Source: Methanobacteriota archaeon
GTDB lineage: Archaea > Halobacteriota > Bog-38 > Methanoflorentales > Methanoflorentaceae
Reading direction: 5' to 3'
Assembly (NCBI GenBank): GCA_003158275.1
Contig: PMIN01000009.1
Location: 1 to 38,497 of the forward strand
DNA: 38,497 bases
The translations under genes were made by a program, and so were the position numbers. Positions 2,182 to 37,137 of this stretch are shown here, piece after piece. The notes under the pieces were generated by a model. The model was not told the DNA's origin, made no database searches, and was given only the letters and a program-made list of their open reading frames with translations. The stretch's first letter is position 1; each line of letters opens with the position of its first letter.

Positions 2182-3387
2182 TCATCTCTCCCGCCTCAAG
2201 AGAGTATGCCGCAGGTGCTCCCTGAGAACGGTCGGCCTGATGAACTCAAGAATTTTATTAACAGCTTTGGGTTCTGCACGCTGTTCGTAATACGAAATTG
2301 CAAACAGTACAGGCAATCCAACAAAAACAACGATAGCTGCTATCTCAAGTTCTCCGAAAGGCAACACCCGCTGAAGGGCGAACTGTAGCCCTACGACAAA
2401 CTGTTGAGAGAATAGGAAAACGGAATAGGATGCGACGGCAGCGAAAAAGAAGAATGCGCCAGCCCTGCTGCCAAGTCTCGGCGAGCGCGCTTTAGCGACG
2501 TAAAACGCGACAACGACAAACAGGAGACTTATTGTGGTTAGATAGACGAGGTATACCCCACTACCGGCAAGGTTGTTCAGGCCGGGGCCCAAACCTACGT
2601 CTAGCGGGGCTCCGTCACGCGGGTAGTTCAAAGCTGCCTGTGCAAAGATCAGAAAAGTCACTATCAATGCACAAGATGCCACAAGGCGATTCGTAATAGC
2701 GCCGTTGTAGAACAGATTTGCTCTGTTTGCAATAATTCCTGCCGTAAAAACACAAAAGTAGATGTAGAGATGAACGTCGCCAACCACGTTGAAAACGATG
2801 TAAGCCGCGACCAAACACAAGAAAAGGATTGCTGATACTAGAATTACCCTTCTAACATCGTTCTTCGAAAAGTAGGCAATCGGAGGGTAAAGCAGATAGC
2901 AGATCAGAATTGTGCCAATAAACCACCTGTTGGGCATGTTAATGAATCTGGGGTATAACAACACTTGTGCACCTAACAAGCATATCATCACGTCGCTCTG
3001 CGACAAACCATTCTGACCGAGCAAACTAGCTTGCAGCGTCGGTAACAAGCTTACGTGCAGTGCCGGTATTATCACCAAAATGGCTAGAAAGCTTATTATT
3101 AGGGACACCCAGTACAGCGGGTAAATCCGTTTCATTCGCTTATAAAAGAACCTTGAGACATCAGTCTGCGTAATAAGCCCTCTATTGTTGAGATCGATGG
3201 AAAAACCAGACAAAAAGAAGAAAAGGGCCATTCCAAACAAACCGACATAGCCGAGAGCGGCCCTAACAGCTGGGTCCTGTGATAGTGGCAAGGCTAAGTC
3301 CTCAGGCAAATGATAAAATACGATCAAAAAAATACCGAGAGCTCTCAAAATGTCAAGTTCTTTCAAACGCTTGGCGGGCATTGGCAT
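2182..3387 (-). CDS. Acyltransferase family 3 membrane protein (O-acetyl/acyl transferase of surface glycans)
   Basis: A 401-residue polytopic protein. The N-terminus carries the acyltransferase-3 signature LDILRALGIFLIVFYHL (residues 11-27) with the candidate catalytic His26, followed by GMALFFFLSGFSI and about ten hydrophobic segments, the family's usual architecture and length. Such proteins move acyl groups, usually acetyl from cytosolic acetyl-CoA, onto extracytoplasmic sugars. It resembles the second acyltransferase at 25076-26251 throughout (both start M-P-x-P and have ELDILRA and His26), so the window holds two intact paralogues. It stands alone on the minus strand between a decayed GT4 and a gene-poor stretch. 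The ATG at 3387 was chosen because it puts the signature at the expected distance. The acceptor sugar and acyl group cannot be told from sequence. Confidence 0.92.
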   Translation of the reverse strand: MPMPAKRLKELDILRALGIFLIVFYHLPEDLALPLSQDPAVRAALGYVGLFGMALFFFLSGFSIDLNNRGLITQTDVSRFFYKRMKRIYPLYWVSLIISFLAILVIIPALHVSLLPTLQASLLGQNGLSQSDVMICLLGAQVLLYPRFINMPNRWFIGTILICYLLYPPIAYFSKNDVRRVILVSAILFLCLVAAYIVFNVVGDVHLYIYFCVFTAGIIANRANLFYNGAITNRLVASCALIVTFLIFAQAALNYPRDGAPLDVGLGPGLNNLAGSGVYLVYLTTISLLFVVVAFYVAKARSPRLGSRAGAFFFFAAVASYSVFLFSQQFVVGLQFALQRVLPFGELEIAAIVVFVGLPVLFAISYYEQRAEPKAVNKILEFIRPTVLREHLRHTLLRRER

Positions 3388-19595: not shown

Positions 19596-20542
19596 TTGTT
19601 CAACAGAGCTGTTAGGCCACCTATTCCGCAGCCTGTATGGGAAACACTTCACGTACATTCGCAAGGTCATCGTCAAGCAGATTCCCCCCCTTTGCTGTGA
19701 TCTTGCGGCACGAAGCATAGGACAAGGAGGACACAAGCGCCACGACGTATTGCCAACGTTTGAGTTACTTGCTTTCCACATACGCGTGCGAAAACGGCGA
19801 AATGAAGGCTCGCTCTCTCAAACATCGGTCTCCTTGGCGTGAGAATTAGTGAGATATTCCATAAGCACTGGGTCCCTCACTACTCCGCTTATCGGAAGCG
19901 CGTGTACAGCTTCAGCATCCCTCACAAAAAAATCGGCAGTCCAGCTCGTACGGCCTTAAGCCCGTAATCCATATCCTCATATCCTACGAAAAAGAACGGA
20001 CCATCCAATAATAACCTATCGTATCCATCGCTTTTTTGAGATCAATACAACGTGCATTCCAAAAGTCTGTATCTTGCAGCGGAAGGAACACAGCGTGATC
20101 GGATACAAGCTCCCGAAAACGTTCTTGGCATGAGCGCTTGGCCTGCTATATAACGGTCGATCGCGGTCGCGAATATTGGGGCAGAGTAAATCGCCTTTCT
20201 TGGCACACTTAAGCAGCGCAATCAAACAATTGGGTGAAACCGTGCTATCCTGATCAAGCAACCAGACCCAGTCGAAGCCATTCTCGTGAGCGATTGCCAT
20301 CCCACGACGAAAGCCTCCCGCTGAACCGATGTAATTTTTGGTTTTGTAATAATGCGCAAACTCGTATTGTCTGGATTGCACGCGAAATACGCGCTCGTTT
20401 TTGGGGCAGAGATCTGATCAGAGTTATCGATGAAGATGAGGCCACTTAAGGGCGATCCCTGGCTTGTGAGCGATTCAAGCAAACGCGTAAGCTATCTAGG
20501 GTCATTGTAAGCGATTGTGATAGCGCAAACCTTTGTTCTCAT
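19572..20542 (-). pseudogene. Decayed GT2 glycosyltransferase, paralogue of the intact gene at 12383-13360
   Basis: The minus strand aligns end to end with the intact GT2 (971 bp against 978 bp). Start ATG at 20542: MRTKVCAITIAYNDPR, then a stop where the intact copy has GELARLL. Next LSGLIFIDNSD, a frameshift, then KTKNYIGSAGGFRRGMAIAH, VWLLDQDSTVS and LCPNI in a frame stretching from 20381 to 20016, where a stop follows VVLISKK. After further shifts the C-terminus reads WPNSSVEQLCREILK and stops at 19572, matching WPYSSIGELCRSILQ. The DxD and glycine-rich motifs are still intact. Amino-acid identity in the conserved core is high (well above half), so the two copies derive from a duplication or a parallel acquisition. 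The downstream end overlaps the CapA-like gene tail to tail. Confidence 0.9.
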
Positions 20543-21540: not shown

Positions 21541-23004
21541 ATGTCGAGCGCCAAACGCGTAGCGAGAAATACGTCCTTACTGACAATTGGTCAGATAATA
21601 AGTTATGGGGAGAGTGCCATCTATATTATTCTCATTGCTCGGTACTTAGGCCCGCAAGGTTTGGGGATCTTGAATCTTGGACTGGCACTCACGGCAGTTT
21701 TCGCTAGTCTTGCGACGTTCGGTCTGACGACGCTAGCTACAAGAGAGGTTGCCAAAGATAGAGGCCTAGCCAGCAAATATGTGGCGAACCTCATTCCGAT
21801 GCAAGTGCTGTTAGCTCTCGCTGCCATCGGTCTGGTCGTTGCGCTGGTAAATGTTATCGGGTACTCGCAGGAAACCATTTTCGTTGTCTACATCCTGTCT
21901 GTTGTAATCATTGTAGGCACGCTTTCATCGCTCTTTTTGGCCATATTTCAAGCGTTCGAACAGCTTGAGTTCCAGGCCTTAGTGTTGATCGTAACCAGTG
22001 TGGTGCCACTTTGTGGAGCCGTGATCCTGATACAGCTGCACTTGAACGTTGTGGCATTTGCGCTCTTAGTACTCTTGACGGCCGGGTCCGGGTCCGTTAT
22101 CGGATTAGCGTACGTCTACTTGATATGCGTCCGACGATTTTTTGTGCCTCGTCTTGAAGCCGACTTCACTTTCTGGAAAAGTGCTCTAATTGAAGCTTGG
22201 CCAATGGCTGCCAGCGCAGTGAGCGTAATAATCTTCTTTAGGATTGACGTCGTGATGACATCATTTATCCAGGGTACGACTGCAGTCGGCTTTTACAGCA
22301 TTGCGTATACCCTCTCAGAGGCGTCGCTCGTTGTTCCAAGCGTATTTCTTAGCGCCATATTCCCGGTGCTGTCTAGGCTGCACCGAGACTCCAAGCTGTC
22401 CTTTCGAGACACTTGCGCGCAGGCGATAAAATACCTGTTTTATCTTGCTATGCCAATGGCGTTTTTCGTCACAATATGGGCAAAGCCGATCGTCTACCTC
22501 CTCTATGGGGCCAGATTCGACCCATCTGTCGCGGCTCTGCAAATACTGATCTGGTCCGCAGCGCTCATGTGGCTGACTATATTTTTGGGGAGCACACTTG
22601 TGGCTGCTAACCTGCAAAAGCTGGGCCTGAAAATAACTTTCTTGGGATTCATTCTCAACATAAGCTTAAACGTGCTTTTGATCCCCGAGTACAGTTACTT
22701 TGGTGCATCATTTGCGACAGTAGTTACTGCAGCGTTTGCGCTCGCTTTGCAGCTCTTTTTCCTGGGACGAAACGGCTTTGCTCTTGGGTTCCGAGGAACG
22801 AGTTTGGCAGCCTTTTTCGGCCTAGCCGTCATTGTAGCTATTTCTGCCCTGCTGCATCTCGGTAACGTCCCACTGGCGCTGATAACAATTGTAGACTTGG
22901 TTTTATACGCTGCCGTTATACACAAATTTGGCCTAAACGAGCAAGATAAACAGTTGATACTCAGTTTATTTAAGCGTCCAAGACCAGCAGAAGAGGAGAT
23001 GTAA
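21541..23004 (+). CDS. Polysaccharide (Wzx-like) flippase of the MOP exporter superfamily
   Basis: A complete integral membrane protein of 487 residues, the usual length, with about 12-14 hydrophobic segments. The N-terminus carries the typical pattern (R-x-x-R-N-T-S, then IYIILIARYLGPQGLGILNL, residues about 26-45), next FGLTTLATREVAKDR (residues about 60-75) and FLAIFQAFEQLEFQ (about 135-148), all hallmarks of polysaccharide biosynthesis (Wzx/RfbX) proteins. It should move the finished lipid-linked glycan across the cytoplasmic membrane, so it links the cytosolic glycosyltransferases to the surface acceptors. The ATG at 21541 aligns with that of the decayed copy at 20914. The only other flippase sequences in the window are decayed, so this is the sole working exporter here. 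Confidence 0.94.
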   Translation: MSSAKRVARNTSLLTIGQIISYGESAIYIILIARYLGPQGLGILNLGLALTAVFASLATFGLTTLATREVAKDRGLASKYVANLIPMQVLLALAAIGLVVALVNVIGYSQETIFVVYILSVVIIVGTLSSLFLAIFQAFEQLEFQALVLIVTSVVPLCGAVILIQLHLNVVAFALLVLLTAGSGSVIGLAYVYLICVRRFFVPRLEADFTFWKSALIEAWPMAASAVSVIIFFRIDVVMTSFIQGTTAVGFYSIAYTLSEASLVVPSVFLSAIFPVLSRLHRDSKLSFRDTCAQAIKYLFYLAMPMAFFVTIWAKPIVYLLYGARFDPSVAALQILIWSAALMWLTIFLGSTLVAANLQKLGLKITFLGFILNISLNVLLIPEYSYFGASFATVVTAAFALALQLFFLGRNGFALGFRGTSLAAFFGLAVIVAISALLHLGNVPLALITIVDLVLYAAVIHKFGLNEQDKQLILSLFKRPRPAEEEM

Positions 23005-23772: not shown

Positions 23773-24600
23773 ATGACAAAACGAAGAACAACAGAAAGAG
23801 CTGTCTTAATCCACTCAGCGGCTAAATTCATCGGTTCTTTAAGGACGGCAGCAAAGCGGCTTCGATACGAGCTTCGGTACAACAACTATGCCAAGAATAA
23901 GCTTGAGCGAGCAAAGAACAAGAAGTTGCTTGAACAGAGCAGAGCATCTTCACACAAGACTGTGCGACATGAGCAGCCGCTCGTTTCTGTTTTGATTACT
24001 ACCTACAACAACAGCAGGGAGCTAACAAAACGCGCAATTCCATCCGTTTTGCGGCAGACGCACAAGAATCTTGAAATAATAGTTGTCGGTGATCATTGCA
24101 CGGACGATAGTGAAGAACGCCTCAGAACACTAGCTGATAGCAGGGTAACGTTTTACAATTTGCCAAAGAGGGGAGCCTATCCACAAGACGGTATAGAGAG
24201 GTGGCAAGTGGCAGGCGTCGCACCTGCAAACAAATGCTTAGAGATGTCCTCTGGAGAATGGATTACCTTTTTGGATGATGATGATGAATTTACCGAAGAC
24301 CATGTTGAGTCATTGCTGAACTTCGCTTTGCAATGCGATTATGAGATGGTTTACGGAAAAGTTATGCGCGAGCGCAAGGCGGGGGGAGCTGAATCGAACG
24401 AGGTCGGAGCGTTCCCTCTTCGAGAAGGTGAGATCTCGAAAATATCGACGCTATACCAGTCTAAACTGAGATTTTTCAAGTACGATATAGACGCTTGGAA
24501 GTTTTACGAACCAGCAGACTGGAACTTGTGGCGGCGCATGAAAGAAGCAGGCGTGCGGATAGGATTTCTAGATAAGGTTGTCGCAATCCAACATCTTTAA
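23773..24600 (+). CDS. GT2-family glycosyltransferase with basic N-terminal extension
   Basis: 275 residues. The catalytic GT-A domain starts at about residue 70 with PLVSVLITTYNNSRELTKRA and continues VLRQTHKNLEIIVVGDHCTD, a gap-free GT2 pattern. The metal-binding cluster is FLDDDDEF (Asp168-Asp171). YEMVYGKVMRE and WKFYEPADWNLWRRMKEAGV mark the acceptor side. The first 69 residues are Lys/Arg-rich and probably helical, and may lie on the membrane surface; a later start is possible but there is no better candidate Met before the domain. It ends shortly after the RIGFLDKVVAIQHL block, a normal end for short family members. Likely adds one sugar to the lipid-linked glycan. It lies downstream of the flippase on the same strand but 768 bp away, so it probably has its own promoter. 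Confidence 0.9.
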   Translation: MTKRRTTERAVLIHSAAKFIGSLRTAAKRLRYELRYNNYAKNKLERAKNKKLLEQSRASSHKTVRHEQPLVSVLITTYNNSRELTKRAIPSVLRQTHKNLEIIVVGDHCTDDSEERLRTLADSRVTFYNLPKRGAYPQDGIERWQVAGVAPANKCLEMSSGEWITFLDDDDEFTEDHVESLLNFALQCDYEMVYGKVMRERKAGGAESNEVGAFPLREGEISKISTLYQSKLRFFKYDIDAWKFYEPADWNLWRRMKEAGVRIGFLDKVVAIQHL

Positions 24601-25075: not shown

Positions 25076-26251
25076 TTACTCGTTCGAATCAGACGACGGC
25101 GAAGAAGCGGCACGATATTTTCTGATTTTGTTCAGGATTTCATTTTGTGTGCTCTGCAACACAAAACCGATAAGGACGACCGTCGGCAATCCGACGAAGA
25201 TCTGGACGATGTCGATCTCAAGCGCCGTTAACGGGGTAACCAAGAGTGCGTGCATAAATTGGATTAGAATCGTCGTAAAGAACAGGTAGATCGCATACGA
25301 TGAGAAAGAGATCAAGAGAAGCGCACGATACCAGACCGCACGAGAGAGCGGCCGGGACGCTTTAGAAAAAGAAACCACAACTAAGCGGACCAGACAAAAG
25401 GTGAGCAGAGCGAATAGAAGAAACAGCGCATTCGTCATGACAAAAGAAAAGTAGCTCGCAAAGCGTGATACGGCGGATGCGTTTGCGGGTTGCAGCGAGA
25501 GGGTGTATATGAATAGAAAGGCCGTAAAGGAAACAGCCGCCACCGCGACGTTTTTCAAGAGTTTTGTCCTATTGTCCGTTAGAAATCCGTATTTGCCAAG
25601 TACGTCATACTTGCTTATCGCTACGCCGAGCACAAAAATGCCATAGAAAATAAACACATCACCAGAGATAATAGAGAAGGCAAAGTGTGCTACAGCGAGG
25701 ATCAGGAACGGAACAATTAGCATCAGGGCGAACTTTAGCACATCAGAATCTATCCGAGCAGGGAGCTTGACATCCGATGCAAGTGCAATTATTAGCGGAT
25801 ATATCGTGTAAAGCACCAAAATCACTCCGATAAACCACCAACCGGTCATGATGCCCGTGCCGAACCTCGGTGACAAGAAGCCTTGCAGTCCGAGGACGAC
25901 AATCAGTGTGTTGCCTCGAGTAGCAAGATCAGCTAACGGCCGTCCAACAACAAACACTAACGCAATAGATAGCCAATACAGGGGGAAAATCCTGAGCACT
26001 CTTTTTTTGAAAAAGTCTGTCAACTCGCCCCGCTGAGAGAAACTCGGGTGATTGAGGTACAAAACAAACCCTGATATGAAAAGGAACAGTGCGACACCAA
26101 GATATGTAACGAAAACCTGTGCGTACGAACCGACCGTAAAATCCGGGATTACCGTCGGTAAAAAAAAGCTCAAGTGGGAGACAACGATGATAATAATGGC
26201 AACTGCCCTTAAAATATCGAGTTCTACCACCCGAACGTGAGGTTTAGGCAT
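25076..26251 (-). CDS. Acyltransferase family 3 membrane protein (second paralogue)
   Basis: 391 residues with about ten hydrophobic segments. The N-terminal signature VELDILRAVAIIIIVVSHL (residues 9-27) contains the candidate catalytic His26, followed by GVALFLFISGFVLYLNHP and FFKKRVLRIFPLYWLS, hallmarks of this family. It resembles the acyltransferase at 2182-3387 in length and motif spacing but differs in sequence, so both may be working with different acceptors. It lies downstream of the thiolase and hydroxyacyl-CoA dehydrogenase genes on the same strand (281 bp gap). If those genes produce an acyl-CoA for glycan decoration, this enzyme is one possible user, besides the NeuD/PglD-like enzyme. 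The ATG at 26251 is preceded by GAAGGCGA about 9 bases upstream. Confidence 0.92.
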   Translation of the reverse strand: MPKPHVRVVELDILRAVAIIIIVVSHLSFFLPTVIPDFTVGSYAQVFVTYLGVALFLFISGFVLYLNHPSFSQRGELTDFFKKRVLRIFPLYWLSIALVFVVGRPLADLATRGNTLIVVLGLQGFLSPRFGTGIMTGWWFIGVILVLYTIYPLIIALASDVKLPARIDSDVLKFALMLIVPFLILAVAHFAFSIISGDVFIFYGIFVLGVAISKYDVLGKYGFLTDNRTKLLKNVAVAAVSFTAFLFIYTLSLQPANASAVSRFASYFSFVMTNALFLLFALLTFCLVRLVVVSFSKASRPLSRAVWYRALLLISFSSYAIYLFFTTILIQFMHALLVTPLTALEIDIVQIFVGLPTVVLIGFVLQSTQNEILNKIRKYRAASSPSSDSNE

Positions 26252-26532: not shown

Positions 26533-27627
26533 TTAATACTTATAAAATCCCTCGCCGACTTTCTTCCCGATTTGATTATCTTTTCGCATACTGTAAAGAG
26601 TGTCTGCTGGCTTGTATTTATCGCCATTTAATGCGTTGTTTAATGTTTCAAGTATGCTTATGCATACATCTATCCCAATGAAATCCGCCAGAGCGAATGG
26701 CCCCATAGGATGGTTCAACCCACTCGTTACTGCTCGATCTATATCTTCTCTTGTTGCTACACCTTCTTCCAGTAAATGTACGGCTTCGTTAATTTGAGGT
26801 AATAGCAAGCGATTTACGATAAAGCCTGGACTGTTTTTAACTACTACGGCTTCTTTATCTAGGTCTTTGCTAAACTCGATTATTTTTTCCTTTGTATCTT
26901 CCGAAGTATACTCTCCTACTACAACCTCCACGAGATTCATTTTCGACACAGGATTAAAGAAGTGCAGACCTATACATTTCTCCGGTCTGTCTGTGGCGCT
27001 TGAAATTGCATCAATTGAAATTGAAGATGTATTCGATGCAAGTATCGCCTCCCTGTTGCATGCTGCAGAGAGTTTTTTGAAAACATCTCTCTTAATATCA
27101 AGGTTTTCCGGGGTTGCTTCTACTATTAGCGCACAATTCTCTAAATCGGCATAGTCAGCTGTTATCTCCACCTGTTTGGCATATTGTTCCACTTGTTCAG
27201 CTGTGCTATTTCTTGATAGATTGCCGATGAGTTTAGATAATGCTGTGTCTTTATCTTGAGTATCTCTTGTTTTCAATATAACCGAATATCCGTGACGAAC
27301 GAGATATCCAGCAATCTCTGTACCCATTTGGCCAGTGCCAATTATGCCAACGCCCCGATCCTTTGACTTATCTGTTTTAAGGTTGATTTCATCGCCTATG
27401 CTAAACACCTCATAGCAACTCTTTGCGATTAACGAACCATCCTTATCTTCCAAAAGATAACTAAAATAAGGTACCTTTCTGTAATAGCGAGATGGAATAT
27501 TGACCTGCGTACAGCCTACAATTCTATATCTGGTTTGCAGCACTTCCCGAATGTCGTTTCCGCAGAATATACACTTCTTAATTTCATAGCTCCATTGCTT
27601 GTCACAGTTATCGCAAACATAGACCAT
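26533..27627 (-). CDS. 3-hydroxyacyl-CoA dehydrogenase with N-terminal DUF35-like zinc-ribbon/OB module
   Basis: 364 residues made of two parts. Residues 1-83: a rubredoxin-like ribbon with Cys5-x2-Cys8 and Cys19-x2-Cys22, then an OB-like strand set (VPYFSYLLEDKDGSLIAKS, VFSIGDEINL). This is the layout of DUF35 proteins, which in archaea are separate small subunits bound to thiolases. Residues 91-364: a standard NAD-dependent 3-hydroxyacyl-CoA dehydrogenase with VGIIGTGQMG (Gly97, 99, 102), Ser198 in ASNTSS, His222 in GLHFFNP, Glu234 in NLVEVV and Asn272 in FIVNRLL, so all catalytic positions are kept, and the C-terminal NHPMGPFALADFIG and GEGFYKY. It reduces acetoacetyl-CoA to (S)-3-hydroxybutyryl-CoA or runs the reverse. 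Its ATG directly follows the thiolase TGA with no gap, so the two are co-translated. The whole pair is AT-rich. Confidence 0.93.
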   Translation of the reverse strand: MVYVCDNCDKQWSYEIKKCIFCGNDIREVLQTRYRIVGCTQVNIPSRYYRKVPYFSYLLEDKDGSLIAKSCYEVFSIGDEINLKTDKSKDRGVGIIGTGQMGTEIAGYLVRHGYSVILKTRDTQDKDTALSKLIGNLSRNSTAEQVEQYAKQVEITADYADLENCALIVEATPENLDIKRDVFKKLSAACNREAILASNTSSISIDAISSATDRPEKCIGLHFFNPVSKMNLVEVVVGEYTSEDTKEKIIEFSKDLDKEAVVVKNSPGFIVNRLLLPQINEAVHLLEEGVATREDIDRAVTSGLNHPMGPFALADFIGIDVCISILETLNNALNGDKYKPADTLYSMRKDNQIGKKVGEGFYKY

Positions 27628-28761
27628 TCAATCTTCACCCAATATTGTAACTGCGGCTGTTCCCCCAACGCCCCCTATATTCTGCGTCATACCAACACCA
27701 ACATTAGCAATTTGCCGCAATCCTGCTTCTCCTCGAATTTGAGTTACGACCTCATAAACTTGCGCTAAACCTGTAGCCCCTATAGGATGGCCGTTCCCTA
27801 TCAACCCGCCGTCAGTATTGACGGGTAGGTCTCCACTTGGTAGTACATAGCCATCTTCAACTAACGTTGAAGCTTCTCCGGAATTACAGAATCCTAAATC
27901 CTCTAAGGCCAGCAGTTCACCTATAGTGAAGCAATCATGAACTTCCAATATATCGATATCTTTCATATCAACTTCTGCCTCCCTATACGCTTTTTTAGCA
28001 GCAAGTCTGCTTGCCTTAAAAGATGTCAAGTTACCTCGTTGCGTTATAGAAATCGAATCCGTAACAAAATGAGAAGCTAATATCTCTATATCCCTATCGC
28101 CACTTTTTTCTGACGAAATAATTATAGCGACGGCTCCATCTGATATTGGGCTACAATCGTACAAATTCAAGGGACTGGCAATTAACGGAGATGTATTAAT
28201 CATCTCCTTTGTGACTTCCTTATGGTAGAAGTGAGCAAGTGGATTCAGATTTGCATTTTTATGATTTATGAAAGAAACCTCTTCAAGCACCTTGTGATCG
28301 ATCTCATATTTTCGCATGTATTGCTGAGCTATTAGGCCGTAGCTCGCAGGGAGGGTAAGTCCCTGGGATTGATCTAGTAATTGATCCGAGGCCATGGCTA
28401 ATGCATCAATTTGCTTAACACCGATGCTTTGGGTCATTTTTTCAACCCCAATAACCATGACGGTTTTTAGCGAACCAATTGCATACATCGCTTGTTTTAA
28501 AGCTGCCCCTGAAGATGCGCAAGCAGCTTCTATTCTCACAATAGGTACATTCATACCCGGAAGAAGAGAAGCGACTAGAGCGTTCAAATGCAGTTGCTTG
28601 TTTAGTGGACCAGATAAGAAGTTCGAGACAAATATGGCGTTGATATCCTTGATGCTAATTGTTGCATCTTTGAGTGCGTTGCACATCGACTCATATATCA
28701 TTTCAGGTAATGATGAAGGTAATTTCCCGAATTTCGTCCGCCCTATACCTTTTATATAAAT
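27628..28761 (-). CDS. Archaeal-type acetyl-CoA acetyltransferase/thiolase (SCP2-like), probable non-AUG start
   Basis: 377 residues when read from 28761. Landmarks: IKGIGRTKFGKL near the N-terminus, NAIFVSNFLSG, RIEAACASSGAALKQA with the nucleophile Cys81, EVHDCFTIGELLALEDLG with His275, and NGHPIGATGLAQ with His325; the end has GMTQNIGGVGGTAAV. All three catalytic elements are intact. The first in-frame ATG (28701) would remove the first 20 residues, including the conserved GIGRTKFGKL strand. Upstream of it there is no ATG, GTG or TTG before the in-frame TAG at 28783-28785; the likely start is ATT (28759-28761) or ATA just inside, 3 or 9 bases after GGTGGT. Joins two acetyl-CoA into acetoacetyl-CoA, or cleaves it, in the cytosol; shares its partner with the downstream dehydrogenase. 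Confidence 0.9.
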   Translation of the reverse strand: MYIKGIGRTKFGKLPSSLPEMIYESMCNALKDATISIKDINAIFVSNFLSGPLNKQLHLNALVASLLPGMNVPIVRIEAACASSGAALKQAMYAIGSLKTVMVIGVEKMTQSIGVKQIDALAMASDQLLDQSQGLTLPASYGLIAQQYMRKYEIDHKVLEEVSFINHKNANLNPLAHFYHKEVTKEMINTSPLIASPLNLYDCSPISDGAVAIIISSEKSGDRDIEILASHFVTDSISITQRGNLTSFKASRLAAKKAYREAEVDMKDIDILEVHDCFTIGELLALEDLGFCNSGEASTLVEDGYVLPSGDLPVNTDGGLIGNGHPIGATGLAQVYEVVTQIRGEAGLRQIANVGVGMTQNIGGVGGTAAVTILGED

Positions 28762-29090
28762 GGAACCACCCGTATTTGACGTCTAAGTAGTTACTATCTC
28801 AGCTTGTATTGTCTCAATTAATTTCTTTCGTTTTATTGATAGGGACTATAAGAGTAGCTGATCATGCGTGTTCTTTGCTTATTTGAATGCCAGATGTGTC
28901 ACGCTAAGAGCGTTCTTAAAAGACGAATTAGGTGACTATTACACATGCGTATTATTTTAAACGAGTTAATCGTGCCATATCTATGAATTCATTTGTTGAG
29001 TAATCCGAGAGATTGACATAGTTGATTCTTGGCGACGTGCTCACTGTGACTTGTGTACATCTCTGCTAACCATTACAAAACTATTATGAA
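28762..29090. other. Intergenic region, 329 bp
   Basis: Upstream of the thiolase gene and downstream of the NeuD/PglD-like gene on the same strand. AT-rich; a TATA-like stretch (minus-strand CTTATAG near 28846-28852) could belong to a promoter for the thiolase pair. No gene is seen. Confidence 0.35.
28765..28770 (-). promoter_or_regulatory. GGTGGT ribosome binding site deciding the thiolase start
   Basis: GGTGGT on the minus strand just upstream of the ATT at 28759-28761. The same hexamer precedes the 6-dehydrogenase ATG at 35864, where the start is not in doubt. It supports translation from a non-AUG codon here rather than from the internal ATG at 28701. Confidence 0.5.
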
Positions 29091-29750
29091 TCACCAAGGT
29101 TTTTCATCATCAGATCGATAGGTCTTCTTCACTGCAGCGGGTATTCCTGCTACAAGCGCCATTTCTGGTACATCTTTGGTCACTACAGCACCGGCCGCTA
29201 CAATAGCACCTGCTCCGATTTCTATGTTTTCTAAGATCGTCGCATTTGTGCCAACAAATACTTCTCTTCCTACGGTCGCACGCCCCATAATTTTGGCTCC
29301 AGGTGAGACGGTGGTGTAATCTCCCAGCTTAACATCGTGGCCTATGAGTGCCCCAAGATTGATGATCACGTGTCGGCCAATCTCGATTTGACAAGTTAAT
29401 ATAACTCCTGGTGCAATAACCGTTCCCTCGAGAATATGCACCCAGCGCGAATGGATTGTACTTGGATGTATGACAGTATCAAAGAAGTAGCCATTATTGC
29501 GCAGCTTATGCGCAAGTCGCTTGCGTTTAGTTGAGCCTATAGCCAGTATGACCAACGGCCTCTCCTGTTCTGAAGCTAGATCCAAATAAGAAGTATCACG
29601 TACTGGTTTTCCGTTGATGAGTTCACCTGCCCGTGCACTCTGCTCCTCTACAAAGCCAATGACGTCTTTTTCACGCTTTAAGTCAATATAAATACCTAAT
29701 ACTTCTCTCGCAAACCCTCCTGCGCCTACAATTATTACGCTTTTTTCCAT
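29091..29750 (-). CDS. NeuD/PglD-family sugar N-acyltransferase
   Basis: 219 residues from the ATG at 29750 (a GTG three codons upstream at 29759 is the alternative). Residues 1-90 form the small Rossmann-like domain that begins SVIIVGAGGFAREVLGIY; from about 95 on, a left-handed beta helix of hexapeptide repeats follows (VIAPGVILTCQIEIG, VIINLGALIGHDVKLGDY, TVGREVFVGTNATI, IEIGAGAIVAAGAVVTKDVP), ending in a GIPA loop. His138 in IGHDV sits where the catalytic His of PglD is. The family transfers an acyl group, usually acetyl from acetyl-CoA, to the C4 amino group of UDP-4-amino-4,6-dideoxy-GlcNAc, or acts on sialic-acid-like sugars. It follows the aminotransferase and dehydratase on the same strand, which fits the third step of that pathway; the acyl donor may be acetyl-CoA or the hydroxyacyl-CoA predicted from its downstream neighbours. 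Confidence 0.9.
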   Translation of the reverse strand: MEKSVIIVGAGGFAREVLGIYIDLKREKDVIGFVEEQSARAGELINGKPVRDTSYLDLASEQERPLVILAIGSTKRKRLAHKLRNNGYFFDTVIHPSTIHSRWVHILEGTVIAPGVILTCQIEIGRHVIINLGALIGHDVKLGDYTTVSPGAKIMGRATVGREVFVGTNATILENIEIGAGAIVAAGAVVTKDVPEMALVAGIPAAVKKTYRSDDEKPW

Positions 29751-30018
29751 GTTTTCCACTGTTCAATAAACGACTTGCATACTATATCTGGTTATTTTTA
29801 AGCATCTGCTTGCTAACAGTTATGAATTCTGGCTTGCGTGAAGAAGTTACCTAGCGGCTGAAGTTAGTAACCTTAAGTAAGAACCTATGTAACATGCGTG
29901 TCAACTTGAATGTCAACATCAGTTGACCGTCGTCAATCAGACAACCAAGCAGACAAATTGTTCAGAAAAAGGTTGAGTTTTTCTACAAAAAACGAACGGT
30001 TCCTGTAGCCGTGCAAAA

Positions 30019-31023
30019 TCACTGGCGATATATCTTTTTCAGCAACTGTTTGATTTCATCTTTAGACAGGTTTTGTACCTCCTCAGAGCTGTATCTCGAA
30101 CTGTCTTTTTGTTGACGCGCCTCCTTGCATAAATTCACGACGAAATAGGTGCCCTCGTCACAAGCACATTGTGCTTCATCTTCAGTCATCAGTTCCTCAA
30201 ACATCTTCTCACCTTTTTGCTTCCCTATTTCGATTAGTTTGATCTCGCTTGGACTATAGCCGTTTTCCACAGCTAGTACCTCAATCATCGCCTGTGCAAG
30301 ATCCACCACATTTAAAGACTTCAATTTTGGAACGTAGATATCTCCACCATTTGTTGTCGCCCCCGCCGTCATTATAAGCTCAGCTGCATCGGCCATAGTC
30401 ATCACAAATCTCGTCATTTCTCGATGTGTTACGGTAACCGGTCCGCCTCGCTCTATTTGATTCCGAAAAATGGGCATGACCGAGCCTCGTGAATTGAGTA
30501 CGTTTCCAAACCGTACACACGAGAATTTCGTCCTGTGTGCGCCCTTGTATTGATTTGCTGCGAGCATCAGGCGCTCAGCAACTAGCTTCGTTGCCCCCAT
30601 CACGTTATAGGGATTGACAGCCTTGTCCGTGCTAATGAATATGACGCCCCCAACCTCTTTCTCCAGGGCAGCTTCGATCACATTTTGAGTCCCAAATACG
30701 TTTGTTTTGGCAGCTTCAAACGCATTGTTCTCGCATAAAACCACGTGTTTTAATGCTGCGCAGTGAAAAACGACGTCGACTCCTTCAAATGCCCTCGCTA
30801 ATCGCGCCTTATCTCTTATATCTCCCACAAACATTCTAATCTTTCGCGAACGCAGTTTCTGATCTAAATCAAACAAGCCCGTTTCGTTATTATCCAATAT
30901 CCGTATGGTTGATGCCTCGAACCGAGATAGTCTCTCGACTAATCCACTTCCGATGGTTCCAGATGCGCCCGTAACGAGGATAACGCTATCCGCATAGAAG
31001 TCCGCGAGCTCGCGCATGTCCAT
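30019..31023 (-). CDS. UDP-sugar 4,6-dehydratase, CapD/PglF type (short soluble form)
   Basis: 334 residues from the ATG at 31023; a GTG at 31026 directly before it is an alternative. It is an extended SDR of the polysaccharide-biosynthesis (CapD) family: nucleotide loop LVTGASGTIGS (Gly19, 22, 25), VGDIRD, AALKHV near 90-94, and ISTDKAVNPYNVMGATK with Ser131, Met142 and Lys146. The Met in place of the usual Tyr is the Ser-Met-Lys triad of WbpM/PglF/CapD enzymes. RFGNVLNSRGSVMPIF and GGDIYVPKL further identify the family. Product expected: UDP-2-acetamido-2,6-dideoxy-4-ketohexose from UDP-GlcNAc, in the cytosol. Unlike PglF it lacks the membrane N-terminal domain. Its start overlaps the stop of the aminotransferase gene by one base (TGATG), so the two are co-translated. 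Confidence 0.93.
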   Translation of the reverse strand: MDMRELADFYADSVILVTGASGTIGSGLVERLSRFEASTIRILDNNETGLFDLDQKLRSRKIRMFVGDIRDKARLARAFEGVDVVFHCAALKHVVLCENNAFEAAKTNVFGTQNVIEAALEKEVGGVIFISTDKAVNPYNVMGATKLVAERLMLAANQYKGAHRTKFSCVRFGNVLNSRGSVMPIFRNQIERGGPVTVTHREMTRFVMTMADAAELIMTAGATTNGGDIYVPKLKSLNVVDLAQAMIEVLAVENGYSPSEIKLIEIGKQKGEKMFEELMTEDEAQCACDEGTYFVVNLCKEARQQKDSSRYSSEEVQNLSKDEIKQLLKKIYRQ

Positions 31024-32144
31024 CACGTCCTAAAACTACAGATCTCATCGACGACGTAGTTCATCTCTTCCTCCTTCATGTGTGGCCATAGGGGGAGTGT
31101 CAATACGTGCGTAGCCAATTCTTCTGTAACCGGTAGTCGACTCGAACACTTTAAAACTTGCCGGAAAAAAAAGGACTGGTGCACAGGCGGGAAATAGACT
31201 TTAGTTATTATTCCTCTATCAAACAGGTGTGACATCAACTGATCTCGCGCGGGATGTCTTATCGTGTACATCTGGTATACAGGATAGTACCCGGAAGGGG
31301 ACGTAGGAGTCACAACCTCACCGTCATTTCTTTTCAGTTTGGAAGTCAAATAATGCGCATTTTTTTGTCGCATGCCAATGATGGCATCTGCCTTGTCCAA
31401 CTGAGTCATTCCTAATGCCGCAACGATGTTTGACATCCGGAAGTTGTATCCCAACGTAACGTAATCCGAGCCGTAGTTTTGCTCCGGCCCCAGAGGCTTT
31501 TTAGTTTGCCCGTGAGAGCGTATCAATTCAAGTTTGTCGCGTACTTGCTCGGAATCAGTCGTAACCGCACCGCCGTCTCCTGTGGTGATAATCTTATTCT
31601 GACAGAAACTGAACATTGCTGAGTCGCCAAAAGTTCCAACTCGTGATTCTTCGATCTTGGCGCCAAAAGACTCGGCTGCATCTTCTATGAGAACCAGGCC
31701 ATTATCTTGGGCGATTTCCTTGAGCTCTCGGATCCTGCACGGACATCCTCCGTAGTGAACAGGTATTATTGCTTTTGTATGAGTTGTAATCCTTTCCATC
31801 ACGTCTTCTGGGTCCAAACCGAAAGTTTCTTCCTCAACGTCTGCAAAAACTGGTTTTGCTCCAACGAAAAGTGGCGCATTTGCAGTAGCGACAAAAGTGA
31901 AAGAGGGTACTATAACTTCATCACCCTGTCCAATGCCGTAAGCTAAGAGCGCAGAATGAAGTGCTGAAGTCCCTGAATTGAAAACAGTAGCGCAGTTGGT
32001 GCCAACGTAACGCTTGATCTTGTTTTCGAATAAGCCAACATTTTCACCTATTGCCCAATTCAATCCAGACGCAAGCGAATTCGCGACATTCTCGATGTCT
32101 AGCTTATCCCAATAGATCTTGAAAAGGGGAATCTTAACACTCAT
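31023..32144 (-). CDS. DegT/DnrJ/EryC1/StrS-family sugar aminotransferase
   Basis: 373 residues from the ATG at 32144. PLP-dependent sugar aminotransferase: NSGTSALHSALLAYGIGQGD at 56-75, EVIVPSFTFVATANA, VHYGGCPC, LIEDAAESFGA with Asp155, and SFCQNKIITTGDGGAV with the PLP-binding Lys184. It should aminate the 4-keto sugar made by the dehydratase whose gene follows, like PglE, using glutamate as donor. The frame is open five codons further upstream to 32159, but the 32144 start is preferred because its ATG overlaps the TGA of a decayed hexapeptide acyltransferase (ATGA), a typical operon junction. The 4,6-dehydratase gene starts at its own stop. Aminotransferase, dehydratase and N-acyltransferase thus lie in a row as for a 4-amino-4,6-dideoxy sugar. 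The substrate stereochemistry is not resolved by sequence. Confidence 0.93.
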   Translation of the reverse strand: MSVKIPLFKIYWDKLDIENVANSLASGLNWAIGENVGLFENKIKRYVGTNCATVFNSGTSALHSALLAYGIGQGDEVIVPSFTFVATANAPLFVGAKPVFADVEEETFGLDPEDVMERITTHTKAIIPVHYGGCPCRIRELKEIAQDNGLVLIEDAAESFGAKIEESRVGTFGDSAMFSFCQNKIITTGDGGAVTTDSEQVRDKLELIRSHGQTKKPLGPEQNYGSDYVTLGYNFRMSNIVAALGMTQLDKADAIIGMRQKNAHYLTSKLKRNDGEVVTPTSPSGYYPVYQMYTIRHPARDQLMSHLFDRGIITKVYFPPVHQSFFFRQVLKCSSRLPVTEELATHVLTLPLWPHMKEEEMNYVVDEICSFRT

Positions 32145-32490
32145 AGTTTCGCGTCGCATGAATCTTTGTCTGACTGTCGCGGAGAGCTGATAATCGGAGC
32201 GCCATGCACCAGCCTATTCTTCAAGACAACTCGGTTCACCAAGCTAAAAGCTCCAATCGTTGAATTCTCTCCCACAGTCATTCCGGACATGATTACATAT
32301 GGCTGCCAGTTCTGCTGTTCCTTGCAGAGTGACAGTTCCTTTTTTTGCCATCAATAGTCGATACGGCGCAAATAGCACAATGCGATCCGATTTGAACATA
32401 ATCTTGAATAAAGATCCTATGTTTCGCATTAGGGTAAATCTGCGTTCCCCCGGTGCCAAATTGCCGACAAGTTGGCATATCCGGCCTCAC
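32141..32490 (-). pseudogene. Decayed hexapeptide-repeat sugar acyltransferase
   Basis: Three minus-strand frames stitch into one left-handed-beta-helix acyltransferase. First: TQIYPNAKHRIFIQDYVQIG and SHCAICAVSTIDGKK (about 32450-32340). Second: GTVTLQGTAEL. Third: MSGMTVGENSTIGAFSLVNR, then RLVHGAPIISSPRQSDKD and a TGA at 32141-32143. Frameshifts fall around 32345 and 32285. The last frame ends exactly in the ATGA overlap with the aminotransferase gene, so this was the preceding cistron of the same operon. Such enzymes acylate nucleotide-linked or lipid-linked amino sugars; its loss leaves the NeuD/PglD-like gene as the only visible soluble N-acyltransferase. Confidence 0.8.
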
Positions 32491-33276: not shown

Positions 33277-33359
33277 GTCAAAATTTGTCCAAGTTTCTTA
33301 CCCTTCAGATATCCTTTGGCTGTGGGTCTGTTGTAATACCAGTTGTCGTAATCACTAAT

Positions 33360-33908
33360 GTCCATGAATCGGATACTTCTGCCATTTTTATAAACGATCT
33401 TTGGACTTCAGTTTTGGCAATCTCGCGTCTGTTTCAACATTTAGGCCACTCTATTCTGTTCCTTAATGCAGGGGCGGGTTTTGGCTGGTGCCTGCCCAAG
33501 GACACAAAAGCACCATGCACGTTCGCTGAGGCACAACGCTATTCAGCGCCTTTGCTGAGGTCTACACTGGCGGTAAACCAAGCGCAAGCCTAACACGTCG
33601 CCCAGCTCGCTCTTACAACGCTCAGGGACCGCGGGGTAAAAAAGTGCCCCGCCTCAGCCTCTCGTTCAAGCCCGATACCGATGACATTCGCGAAGCCCCC
33701 CACCCTAAAAGTTGCCCACATGGGCTTGAAGACGGGCGCGCACGTCGGCGCGTTCAGCGCGTTTGATCCTGTGGTCAAGCGGGTGAGTCAGCCCGGCTTT
33801 GAAGGGCTTGAGTATTCGCCCTCAATTGCAGATTGCCTTGCACGAGCGCACTGTTGTATCGTTTTTGACCGAGTAGGAGCAGTTGCCAAGCGCCCCCCTC
33901 GAAAATGA
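33360..33908 (+). pseudogene. Decayed C-terminal half of a UDP-glucose 6-dehydrogenase
   Basis: Plus-strand frames give TSAIFINDLW (normally an F-I-N-E-stretch), then FLNAGAGFGWCLPKDTKAPC with the catalytic Cys of the GFGGSCxPKD motif still present though the preceding Gly-Ser is damaged, YSAPLLRSTLAVNQAQ and a stop, then VAQLALTTLRDR, and in the next frame PPTLKVAHMGLKTGAHVGAF with PGFEGLEYSPSIADCLARAH and CIVFD. This is the order of the C-terminal half of UDP-glucose/GDP-mannose dehydrogenases (motif block, helix, UDP-binding domain). At least one stop and one frameshift break it and the NAD-binding half is gone. The stretch is GC-richer than the surrounding island, hinting at a different source or age. 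The ancestral product was a UDP-uronic acid. Confidence 0.8.
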
Positions 33909-34526: not shown

Positions 34527-35864
34527 TCATTCATTCTTAGCTCCAACGCCTTTGTAGACAAATCCTACTAGCCTCGTTGCATCAGGATCGAAGATGCGTC
34601 TCCCGTCGACGATTATGGCCGTGCGCATCATATCCCTGATTTTTGGTAAGTCAAGCCCTTCAAAATCGCGATGTGCTGTCATAAGGACAAGTGCGTCCGC
34701 TCCGGAGAGTGCCGGATAAACCATCTCTACAGGGATCGCAAACTTCCTTAGAACGCTTTCTTCAACATACGGGTCTACCAGATGAACATTCGCTCCTCTC
34801 TTTGTGAGTTCCTCAATGACTACCACGGACGGGCTCTCACGGTAGTCGCTGACGTTCTCTTTATAAGTCAATCCAAGCACCGCTATTTTCGAGCCGTTTA
34901 CTGCCCTGCTCTGTTCGTTAAGCGCATCCACAATCAGTTGCAAAACGTGGAATGGCATGGAGTCGTTGACAGCTCTGCCAGCAGCTATCACTTGAGAGTG
35001 GTAGCCCAACTCTGCTGCTTTTTGGACCAGGTAGTAAGGATCGACAGGCAGACAGTGCCCGCCGACCCCGGCGCCTGGATAATACACGTTGAAGTTCCAT
35101 TTGGTCGCGGCGGCGCGTATCACCTCCATGATATCGATATGCAGGCGTTCGAAGATCAAAGCGAGCTCGTTCATAAGCGCGATGTTGAGATCCCTTTGAA
35201 TGTTCTCAATGATTTTTGCCGCTTCCGCAGTCTTGATGTCCCTGACGGTCACAACGTCCTTCGCGTTATTTCTGTACAACTGCGCCGTGATTTCAGTCCA
35301 TTGAGGCGTGATGCCACCAACAACGCGAACGACGTCAAGGATGCCGTGCGCTGCATCCCCTGGATTATACCGTTCCGGGCAGTAGGCCAACCCAAAATCA
35401 GTGCCTGCCTTTAACCCCGACTCTTCGAGTACAGGTTTTAGCACTTCGTCGGTCACTCCCGGATATACTGTTGATTCGAGGACGACGAGCTTGCCGGGAC
35501 CCAGGCCTCGTGAAATGCCCTGGCCCGCAGAAATGATGAATGACAAATCAGGCTTCTTGTCTGGAGTAACTGGCGTTGGTACCGTAATGATGGTTACATC
35601 GCTTTTCTTGGTGGCCTCTGTGGTGTCAGTCGTCGCTGTCAGTTTCTCGCGTCGAACGACTCTCGCAACTCTCTCGTCGATGTCTAAATCTTTGAGGTAG
35701 CATGAGCCTTGATTAATCGCGTTGACTTTGTCGCGAGTTCTACTGACACCGATAACGTTGAAGCCATTTTCAGCAAAATTCACCGCCGTCGGTAATCCGA
35801 CGTAGCCCATCCCGATAACGGCAATCCGTGCAGACTTATCCTTGATTGCCTGATCTAAGTCCAT
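34527..35864 (-). CDS. UDP-N-acetylhexosamine 6-dehydrogenase (WecC/WbpA/TviB-like)
   Basis: 445 residues from the ATG at 35864. Nucleotide-sugar dehydrogenase: RIAVIGMGYVGLPTAVNF (residues 13-30, GxGxxG), TIITVPTPV, ESTVYPGVTDEVLKP at 130-144, YCPERYNPGDA, TAEAAKIIENIQRDLNIAL with Lys218, and GAGVGGHCLPVDPYYLV with the catalytic Cys271. GGHC-P-DPYY marks the UDP-HexNAc (ManNAc/GlcNAc) type rather than the UDP-glucose type. It oxidises C6 twice with NAD+ to give a UDP-HexNAc uronic acid. The frame is open 21 codons upstream to 35927, but the 35864 start has AGGTGGT 7 bases before it and fits the family; it overlaps the upstream epimerase gene by 29 bp, so the two are coupled. wecC, wbpA and tviB are the closest-known relatives; the stereoisomer used is not clear. 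Confidence 0.93.
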   Translation of the reverse strand: MDLDQAIKDKSARIAVIGMGYVGLPTAVNFAENGFNVIGVSRTRDKVNAINQGSCYLKDLDIDERVARVVRREKLTATTDTTEATKKSDVTIITVPTPVTPDKKPDLSFIISAGQGISRGLGPGKLVVLESTVYPGVTDEVLKPVLEESGLKAGTDFGLAYCPERYNPGDAAHGILDVVRVVGGITPQWTEITAQLYRNNAKDVVTVRDIKTAEAAKIIENIQRDLNIALMNELALIFERLHIDIMEVIRAAATKWNFNVYYPGAGVGGHCLPVDPYYLVQKAAELGYHSQVIAAGRAVNDSMPFHVLQLIVDALNEQSRAVNGSKIAVLGLTYKENVSDYRESPSVVVIEELTKRGANVHLVDPYVEESVLRKFAIPVEMVYPALSGADALVLMTAHRDFEGLDLPKIRDMMRTAIIVDGRRIFDPDATRLVGFVYKGVGAKNE

Positions 35865-36783
35865 TTTCAAACCACCTGACAGTTGATTCAAGCTCGTCTT
35901 TGAAGGTGCCCTTAGGGTCGTACCCAAACGATCGCGCCTTCGAAATGTCAGCGAGCGAATGTTTTACGTCTCCCGGTCGACGCGCAGCGTGTTGTGCTTC
36001 GACGGTCTTACGAGTTATCTCGCCGATTAGTGCGACGAGCTCGTTGATGCTAATGCTTCGGCCACACGCTATATTAAACGTTCCAGTCTCTTTGGATTCG
36101 GACGCGAGCACGTTCGCATCAACGACGTGTTTCACGAAGGTGAAATCTCTGCTCTGCTCGCCATCTCCATATATGATGGGTGACGAATAGTTCAGCGTCG
36201 CCGTGATGAATCTTGGAATCACCGCTGCGTACTGCGAAAGAGGGTCTTGTCGCGGTCCAAATACATTGAAGTAGCGTAACGAGATGGTGGGCAAGCCGTA
36301 GATCTCGTGGAACACCTTGCAGTAGGATTCGCCAGCCATCTTCGTCACTGCGTACGGCGACAGGGGGTTTAAAGGCATATCCTCTCTCTTCGGAAGTTCA
36401 GGGGCGTCGCCGTACACCGACGACGAGGAAGCGTACACCACCTTTTGTATGCCCGCGTCCTTGGCCGCAATCAGAACCCGCAGCGTTCCTGTGATGTTCG
36501 CCTCATGGGAGGCCAAAGGATCTTTGACGCTTCGTGGAACGCTTGGCAGGGCCGCTTGATGAAAAACATACTCACACTCTTCAAAAATCGCTGCCAGATT
36601 GAGTGTCCGGACATCCCCCTCGATGATCTTTAGGTTGTCACTAATCAAATGCGCTACGTTTTCACGCTTCCCCGTGGACTGGTTGTCGATTATTGCGACG
36701 TCATTATCTTCCACCAGCTTTTCTACCAGGTGGCTACCGATAAAACCGAGGCCGCCTGTGACGATCACGCGCTTTCCTTTCAT
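35836..36783 (-). CDS. UDP-N-acetylglucosamine/galactosamine 4-epimerase (WbpP-like extended SDR)
   Basis: 315 residues from the ATG at 36783. Extended SDR: RVIVTGGLGFIGSHLVEKL with Gly10, 13, 16; VFHQAALPSVPRSV at 73-86, typical of WbpP/TviC-type UDP-HexNAc epimerases; VVYASSSSVYGDAPELPK with the catalytic Ser; SPYAVTKMAGE with Tyr144 and Lys148; RYFNVFGPRQDPLSQYAAVI, matching the WbpP FNVFGxRQ-P motif. It interconverts UDP-GlcNAc/UDP-GalNAc or their uronic forms. The frame is open 36 codons upstream to 36891, but that part is Lys/Arg-rich, contains an inverted repeat and is not like the family; the Met at 36783 fits. The downstream 6-dehydrogenase overlaps it by 29 bp. Together they could make UDP-GalNAcA, as for Vi antigen and O6 antigens; this assignment is inference. 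Confidence 0.93.
   Translation of the reverse strand: MKGKRVIVTGGLGFIGSHLVEKLVEDNDVAIIDNQSTGKRENVAHLISDNLKIIEGDVRTLNLAAIFEECEYVFHQAALPSVPRSVKDPLASHEANITGTLRVLIAAKDAGIQKVVYASSSSVYGDAPELPKREDMPLNPLSPYAVTKMAGESYCKVFHEIYGLPTISLRYFNVFGPRQDPLSQYAAVIPRFITATLNYSSPIIYGDGEQSRDFTFVKHVVDANVLASESKETGTFNIACGRSISINELVALIGEITRKTVEAQHAARRPGDVKHSLADISKARSFGYDPKGTFKDELESTVRWFENGLRSGNQG
35868..35880 (-). promoter_or_regulatory. GGTGG-type ribosome binding site of the 6-dehydrogenase gene
   Basis: Minus-strand AGGTGGT, about 7 bases before the ATG at 35864. It picks this start over the upstream in-frame codon at 35927. Located inside the end of the epimerase gene. Confidence 0.65.
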
Positions 36784-36827
36784 ATCGGATCTCGGTATAG
36801 TCGTCGTCGAATAAACTCGTGTGCGTC

Positions 36828-36850
36828 GAACGCTCTTTTTTAGGGCGTTC
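36828..36850 (-). promoter_or_regulatory. Inverted repeat in the leader of the epimerase-dehydrogenase operon
   Basis: GAACGCTC (36828-36835) and GGGCGTTC (36843-36850) pair as 8-bp arms with one G-T wobble around a T-rich 7-base loop. The hairpin lies about 45 bases before the ATG at 36783, so it could act as a protein-binding site or leader hairpin. No function is shown. Confidence 0.4.
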
Positions 36851-37137
36851 TTATTGCTGGCATAAAGATCATTTTTTTTTCGTGAGCGCAAGCTCGTCTG
36901 GTATCAGCACCATCACAGAAACGTTACTATATTTACGTGTCTATTCGCTTCACATGAAGAATCGCAATTCTTTATAGTCGAATCGTGGATCCATCAAAAA
37001 GTTGAGTCATCCTTGTTCGCCGTCATTCAGCACGTTCATCTACTCAACCTCTCGACTCGGTGCAGGTAACGAGCACGGACAGACGTCTTTATGAGAACCC
37101 AGCGTTTAGTGATAAATAGCTCCGCTGGTTGAACAGC
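36851..37137. other. Upstream region of the epimerase operon
   Basis: Starts with an A/T-rich block (9-T run near 36872-36880) and shows no gene. The promoter of the minus-strand pair should be here. Composition begins to rise in GC towards the right edge. Confidence 0.35.

Follow-up and report, generated by a model that had tools for sequence, protein, structure and literature searches.

A thiolase and a dehydrogenase fused to a DUF35-like domain as a candidate 3-hydroxybutyryl-CoA donor module in an archaeal glycan locus

Results

A thiolase and a fused dehydrogenase within an amino-sugar gene set

The window analysed here is a whole stretch of 38,497 nt, contig PMIN01000009.1 of assembly GCA_003158275.1, from a Methanobacteriota archaeon assigned to the Methanoflorentaceae. 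Its minus strand carries two adjoining genes, called the pair or the cassette below. One encodes an SCP2/archaeal-type thiolase (acetoacetyl-CoA thiolase) of 377 aa (27628..28761; Thiolase_C_1 6.6e-46, Thiolase_N), and the other a fusion protein, whose residues 1-90 (27358..27627) form a divergent DUF35/ChsH2-like zinc ribbon plus OB domain (Zn/OB domain), recognised by fold search and weak profile matches, and whose residues 91-364 (26533..27357) form a 3-hydroxyacyl/3-hydroxybutyryl-CoA dehydrogenase (HBDH) domain (3HCDH_N 1.5e-53, 3HCDH 1.2e-31). The stop of the thiolase abuts the start of the HBDH gene; in the homologous locus L005, the fusion protein has an apparent ATA start (L005 6032), which overlaps the thiolase stop. 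In the order of transcription the pair is preceded by a DegT/PseC/perosamine-synthase-like sugar aminotransferase, the maker of the amino group (31023..32159; DegT 1.6e-107; perosamine synthetase 3bn1 and QdtB 3frk), a CapD/PseB/FnlA-like UDP-HexNAc 4,6-dehydratase (30019..31026; Polysacc_synt_2 2.2e-101; CapD 6bwc, E 4e-74) and a NeuD/PglD/VioB-family sugar N-acyltransferase, a candidate user of the donor (29091..29759; PglD_N/hexapeptide), and it is followed by a membrane acyltransferase-3, an alternative acyl-CoA user (25076..26251; Acyl_transf_3 2.7e-24). All six genes score above the Pfam cut-offs, and every gene that the initial annotation had named was recovered at the same position on the minus strand. 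The gap between the NeuD-like gene and the thiolase is 329 nt and that between the HBDH and the acyltransferase-3 gene 281 nt; a scan of the intergenic gaps for sigma-70-type promoters found 10, compared with 8.9 expected.

Upstream of 28701, none of the start codons ATG, GTG and TTG occurs in the thiolase reading frame. Since its N terminus, IYIKGIGRTKFG, aligns with MYIxGIGxTKFG of the homologues, the start was placed at the ATT at 28761, which agrees with the start given by the initial annotation. The catalytic residues Cys81, His275-Asp-Cys277 and His325 are intact and the same as in the mevalonate enzyme, and the nearest solved structures are the acetoacetyl-CoA thiolases 7yvy and 6esq (E about 1e-70). 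The protein stays under two curated whole-protein cut-offs (NF053570, 354.4 compared with 600 bits; NF004720, 410.7 compared with 420 bits), and because the first of these, which it misses, is the equivalog model for acetyl-CoA acetyltransferases, the family does not settle its substrate.

The dehydrogenase domain has the Rossmann GxGxxG motif, both domains of the 3HCDH family (PF02737 and PF00725) and the catalytic residues Ser201, His222, Glu234 and Asn272, which are kept in 10/10 cassette members. Its top fold match is the (S)-3-hydroxybutyryl-CoA dehydrogenase of C. acetobutylicum, with 42% identity. The cofactor pocket is different from that of NAD-type HBDHs. The adenosine-ribose-binding Asp that ends strand beta-2 is present in 100/102 ordinary HBDHs but in none of the ten cassette members, all of which have Ser, Thr, Ala or Gly in its place, followed by an invariant Arg (T120-R121 in the window); such an Arg occurs in 11/102 ordinary HBDHs. 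In Rossmann enzymes the loss of the Asp together with a following Arg is the NADP(H) pattern. The cassette dehydrogenases thus probably use NADPH, which would fit a biosynthetic reduction.

The N-terminal domain of the window protein has the architecture of DUF35/ChsH2 proteins, with ribbon cysteines at C5, C8, C19 and C22 (CX2C...CX2C) followed by the OB domain. The cysteine ribbon is retained in most members and lost in loci L009 and L142, both of which still have the OB domain. Neither Pfam model (PF12172, PF01796) matched the window domain and the relatives score below threshold (L009 OB, 15.6 compared with 27.1 bits; L007 ribbon, 12.8 compared with 23.2 bits), so we call the domain DUF35-like rather than a Pfam member. 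When a profile of 13 Zn/OB copies was searched against all PDB sequences, the top two matches, weak ones (E 0.15 and 0.16), were both DUF35 proteins, and one of them is the DUF35 subunit of the archaeal thiolase/HMG-CoA synthase (HMGCS) complex. The AlphaFold model of the domain has a mean pLDDT (predicted local distance difference test) of 84.7, and a structural search of the PDB with it gave DUF35-family chains in each of the first 19 places, 17 of these chains being subunits of thiolase-superfamily complexes; with E-values of 1e-3 to 5e-2, the weight of this search lies in the agreement of the list. DUF35 subunits act as a scaffold for thiolases and a second enzyme (PMC12329534, PMC6996347). 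On the basis of these matches and of that role in solved complexes, the Zn/OB domain is read as a putative thiolase-docking scaffold.

The pair recurs in glycan loci of archaea and bacteria

The same fused pair, in the same order, was found in about ten independent loci of several archaeal and bacterial phyla; the recurrence of both the order and the domain fusion puts the association far beyond chance. Profile searches covered 1146 genomes from the phyla of four pair-bearing relatives, and 12 genomes, query genomes counted, have the Zn/OB domain. Bacteria have the pair too: it occurs in Nitrospirota (L008) and in two Cloacimonadota genomes (L007, and L148 with a 3HCDH fusion whose thiolase is 63% and HBDH 53% identical to those of the window). 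In the phylum Micrarchaeota (G398, G839, G899, G1009 and G1049) the carriers are L009, where the ribbon is lost and a thiolase accompanies an OB-HBDH protein, and the 3HCDH fusions of L140, L141, L143 and L144. Loci L005 and L006 have the thiolase and the Zn/OB-HBDH gene on one contig sequence, and their host is uncertain because the identical contig sits in a Methanothrix and in a Paceibacterota metagenome-assembled genome (MAG).

In all loci inspected the thiolase lies directly ahead of the Zn/OB gene, and several variants keep this arrangement with a different partner. In L142 (5200-6114), the OB domain behind a cassette thiolase is fused to an unrelated FabG/PhaB-type short-chain dehydrogenase/reductase (SDR), so that here a non-homologous reductase has taken over the slot. 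Outside glycan loci, a Zn/OB domain and thiolase with another fused domain were found in L138 (8405-9442), L137 (5562-6563) and L125 (8569-9080); this other domain matches DUF362 in L138 only, and those of L137 and L125 resemble it by eye. The L137 locus also holds genes that look, by eye, like those for FabG, MeaB and a mutase. In the phylum of the window itself, L178 (4475-5930) has a thiolase 63% identical to that of the window and a free-standing Zn/OB gene, with no dehydrogenase, flanked by DUF1616 and family 2 glycosyltransferase (GT2) genes.

Glycan or acyltransferase genes stand beside nearly every 3HCDH-fused pair that was recovered. Immediately downstream of the pair in L005, L007 and L148 is a WcaF/WbbJ-like hexapeptide acyltransferase, not a NeuD, and in L005 and L007 this is followed by a polysaccharide deacetylase. 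A conserved polysaccharide-deacetylase-like gene also lies directly upstream of the thiolase in L009, L140 and L141 (Pfam match) and in L143 (similarity), and de-N-acetylation followed by re-acylation is conceivable for these four loci; a deacetylase-like stretch was seen by eye downstream in L144. The neighbours in L008 are an MBOAT acyltransferase, a GDSL-family gene and CapD, and several cassette loci also have GT2, flippase, DegT and CapD genes. Markers derived from the window occurred in 4/11 cassette loci compared with 2/75 ordinary HBDH loci (p = 0.002), the cassette loci amounting to 140 kb and the ordinary ones to 1273 kb, that is, nine times less sequence on the cassette side. A version with LbH and deacetylase genes drawn from the cassette loci themselves (10/11 compared with 2/75) was circular and was not used, and L022 (match 11-363), by eye an ordinary acyl-CoA metabolism locus, was set aside. 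The initial annotation had named a neighbourhood search as a check, a pair normally outside glycan loci being the unfavourable result; the search was run and its result favours the proposed link.

Descent of the pair and genome context

In phylogenetic trees, the cassette thiolases, variants included, fall on one side of a branch with 100/100 support, apart from 29 mevalonate-type thiolases, and the cassette HBDHs on one side of a 99/95 branch, apart from 54 ordinary HBDHs. The two trees share the pairings of L005 with L007, of L140 with L141 and of the window near L148. These matching pairings point to co-inheritance of the thiolase and the fusion gene as a unit.

The pair is absent from the other six genomes sampled from the class, including those of its own species and genus, and its GC content is 41%, below the 46.7% of the remaining window sequence and the 50% of the contig with the mevalonate genes; both features fit accessory genes gained by horizontal transfer. 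The tetranucleotide profiles of the rest of the window and of a core contig have a correlation of 0.73. The genome has a separate mevalonate operon, HMGCS-thiolase-DUF35 (HMGCS at C133, by reading of the sequence), and no HMGCS adjoins the pair. The genome, whose assembly is 70% complete, yielded no other 3HCDH, and a search of the seven class genomes gave no crotonase, while 13/14 control genomes were matched; the statement of the initial annotation that no other fatty-acid genes are present likewise holds among the annotated window genes. Because relatives lack the pair, the mevalonate thiolase has its own operon and no crotonase was found in the class, the pair is not housekeeping; a mevalonate-pathway role was rejected in view of the separate operon, and a role in beta-oxidation or butyrate metabolism in view of the missing crotonase and of the neighbourhoods. 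A phage origin was rejected, as matches in viral contigs cover the dehydrogenase part only, except for a weak long match in L122 (29% identity), and among the ten plasmid matches listed none covers the zinc ribbon.

Other genes of the window

Around the six-gene set lie additional glycosyltransferases, among them a GT2 glycosyltransferase (23773-24600, plus strand; Pfam), a Wzx-type flippase (21541-23004, plus strand; Pfam), a UDP-sugar dehydrogenase and a GalE-type epimerase (34527..36891, minus strand; Pfam), which make up the remainder of the glycan locus, and a DUF2206 membrane protein. Between window positions 32160 and 34500 there is no long open reading frame of a recognised family on either strand. 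This region holds a piece of UDP-sugar dehydrogenase (33285-33590; PF00984, E 3e-5), and hexapeptide-repeat and epimerase-like stretches in shifted frames were seen by eye; these fragments next to the DegT gene look like decayed genes or assembly frameshifts. GT2 pieces on the minus strand at 20016-20482 are probably a broken or frameshifted gene. A second acyltransferase-3 gene with an HGSNAT-type match (2182-3387) is a further candidate acyl-CoA user.

Discussion

A probable dedicated supply of 3-hydroxybutyryl-CoA

We consider it likely that the two genes form a dedicated module that makes an acyl donor, 3-hydroxybutyryl-CoA, for a surface glycan. Two molecules of acetyl-CoA would be condensed to acetoacetyl-CoA by the thiolase. 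In solved thiolase complexes DUF35 subunits bind the thiolase, and the DUF35-like domain would dock here in the same way, so that the 3HCDH domain fused to it could reduce the acetoacetyl-CoA to (S)-3-hydroxybutyryl-CoA, with NADPH as the probable cofactor. The 3-hydroxybutyryl group could then be transferred to a sugar that would be built by the 4,6-dehydratase and the DegT aminotransferase; among the acyltransferases of the locus, the NeuD-like one (29091-29759) is the most likely to do this. That the function is to reduce the thiolase product is indicated independently by the unrelated ketoreductase that fills the same slot in L142, and this exchange, together with the intact catalytic sets, the NADPH pattern and the lack of crotonase, suggests that 3-hydroxybutyryl-CoA is both the end product and the acyl donor. 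The initial annotation had proposed the same donor, and this half of its proposal is well supported by the glycan neighbourhoods, the separate clades, the NADPH-type signature and the absence of an onward crotonase.

Several points weigh against this assignment. The function is read from genes and a predicted fold, the Zn/OB domain resembles DUF35 weakly in sequence, with scores under the Pfam cut-offs, and the genome is an incomplete MAG (70%). The NeuD gene lies 329 nt away from the thiolase, and the closest solved NeuD-family relatives named here are acetyltransferases. L178 combines the thiolase and Zn/OB domain without a dehydrogenase, and outside glycan loci the three distant relatives L137, L138 and L125 carry the other fused domain; a thiolase/DUF35 unit by itself is therefore not specific to glycans. 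Ordinary CoA metabolism (butyrate, crotonyl-CoA or beta-oxidation), brought into the glycan locus by an accident of transfer, might be thought of, because the thiolase and 3HCDH families are most familiar from butyrate formation and beta-oxidation and because the locus of the distant relative L137 has MeaB-, mutase- and crotonase-like genes by eye. We regard this as very unlikely, given that crotonase was found in 0/7 class genomes, that no second 3HCDH was found in the genome, that the reductase has the NADPH-type signature, that glycan neighbourhoods are repeated across phyla and that the cassette enzymes form separate clades. Equally improbable is contamination or mis-binning as the source of the pair. 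Its low GC content and its absence from the other six class genomes, one of them of the same species, would agree with that, but it sits mid-contig inside a 38 kb glycan locus, the remaining window sequence correlates with the core contig in its tetranucleotide profile, and glycan loci commonly vary within species and are horizontally acquired. A starter other than acetyl-CoA, which would give a longer or branched 3-hydroxyacyl donor, is unlikely, though less so than these two. The thiolase scores 354 instead of 600 bits on the acetyl-CoA acetyltransferase equivalog NF053570 and DUF35-thiolase complexes use varied acyl-CoAs; on the other side, an archaeal acetoacetyl-CoA thiolase is among its closest solved relatives, and the closest fold matches of the reductase are 3-hydroxybutyryl-CoA dehydrogenases.

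The acceptor is a separate matter. Dideoxy sugars with a 4-N-(3-hydroxybutyryl) group have been described in bacterial glycans (PMC3927599, PMC9676051), and the trio of dehydratase, aminotransferase and NeuD-like enzyme matches routes to 4-acylamino-4,6-dideoxy sugars. The NeuD-like enzyme passes TIGR03570 (197.2 bits, cut-off 160.8), with VioB (7txp) and perosamine N-acetyltransferase as its nearest solved relatives, and we tentatively name it as the user of the donor, at somewhat short of an even chance. Only a little less probable is an alternative in which the donor from the pair, be it 3-hydroxybutyryl-CoA or a different 3-hydroxyacyl-CoA, serves to acylate a hydroxyl or some other amino group of the glycan, through the acyltransferase-3 (25076-26251) or another transferase, while NeuD only acetylates. 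This alternative shares the donor step with the favoured reading, so that the two confidences are not exclusive. The acyltransferase-3 gene follows the pair on its own strand after a gap of 281 nt, the hexapeptide acyltransferases adjoining the pair in L005, L007 and L148 are closest to WcaF/WbbJ-type families rather than NeuD, and L008 carries MBOAT and GDSL-family genes. Against it, the window has a complete amino-sugar trio with NeuD, and the 3-hydroxybutyryl sugars described in the two cited reports are N-acylated at C4 or C7 (PMC9676051, PMC3927599). The proposal of the initial annotation as a whole is thus partly supported: its donor half has good support, and its acceptor half, the 4-N of a dideoxy sugar acylated by the NeuD-like enzyme, may hold but has in the acyltransferase-3 gene an equally close competitor.

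Going further, the thiolase and the DUF35-ketoreductase fusion may represent an undescribed class of complex that hands acetoacetyl-CoA by channelling directly to an NADPH-dependent reductase and that acts, across archaea and bacteria, as a mobile and exchangeable acyl-donor module of surface glycans, in which a swap of the reductase between 3HCDH and FabG-type SDR would give S- or R-3-hydroxybutyryl groups; we put the chances for and against this as about equal. The fusion is likely to be novel, as a literature search, whose coverage left out most subscription journals, found no paper describing a DUF35-3HCDH fusion; with the same coverage, no relevant paper was found on 3-hydroxybutyryl groups in archaeal glycans. 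If the assignment is true, it links one defined chemical group of a surface glycan to a particular gene pair that can be searched for, which is rarely possible in uncultured archaea, adds a CoA-based route beside the acyl carrier protein (ACP)-based route of Pseudomonas flagellin glycans, and means that a reductase has become the second enzyme on a re-used form of the DUF35-thiolase scaffold known from mevalonate synthesis in archaea.

Comparison with known systems

The qhbCB/gdr genes encode a dehydratase, an aminotransferase and an N-acyltransferase. In Acinetobacter baumannii they form a three-gene module for D-QuiNAc4NHb with an (S)-3-hydroxybutanoyl group (PMC9676051), and unlike the window this module as published lists no donor-making genes. 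The viosamine island of Pseudomonas syringae (vioA, vioB, vioS, vioR and acp) does have its own genes for a 3-hydroxybutyryl donor (PMC3927599) and is in this respect like the window, where putative donor genes also lie beside an aminotransferase and a VioB-family acyltransferase. The donor genes of the island, however, are those for ACP, 3-oxoacyl-ACP synthase III (VioS) and 3-oxoacyl-ACP reductase (VioR), none of which is among the annotated window genes, while the window has a CoA-based thiolase and 3HCDH. The clostridial (S)-3-hydroxybutyryl-CoA dehydrogenase 6AA8 shares 42% identity, the fold and the catalytic residues with the window dehydrogenase, which differs in its N-terminal Zn/OB fusion, the replaced Asp of the NAD pocket and its position outside a butyrate operon. 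The best fold matches of the Zn/OB domain, in BbsAB (benzoylsuccinyl-CoA thiolase), Ltp2-ChsH2, Sal-Shy and PhlABC, likewise combine thiolase-superfamily and DUF35 subunits, but these catalyse other reactions and have no fused ketoreductase. The arrangement is paralleled in the archaeal acetoacetyl-CoA thiolase/DUF35/HMGCS complex (6ESQ, 6ET9), where a thiolase of the same subfamily (E 1e-70) is paired with a DUF35-type scaffold and a second, acetoacetyl-CoA-using enzyme is held by that scaffold; in complexes of this type the intermediate is handed over via a shared CoA site, as summarised in the Sal paper (PMC12329534). In the cassette, a 3HCDH that is part of one protein with the DUF35-like domain takes the place of HMGCS, the thiolases form a separate clade, the setting is that of glycan loci, and the genome holds the canonical operon as well. 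By analogy, the cassette may be seen as a CoA-based counterpart of the viosamine island, built from unrelated genes, that follows the scaffold logic of the thiolase/DUF35/HMGCS complex, and with neither ACP and synthase III nor HMGCS it belongs to neither system.

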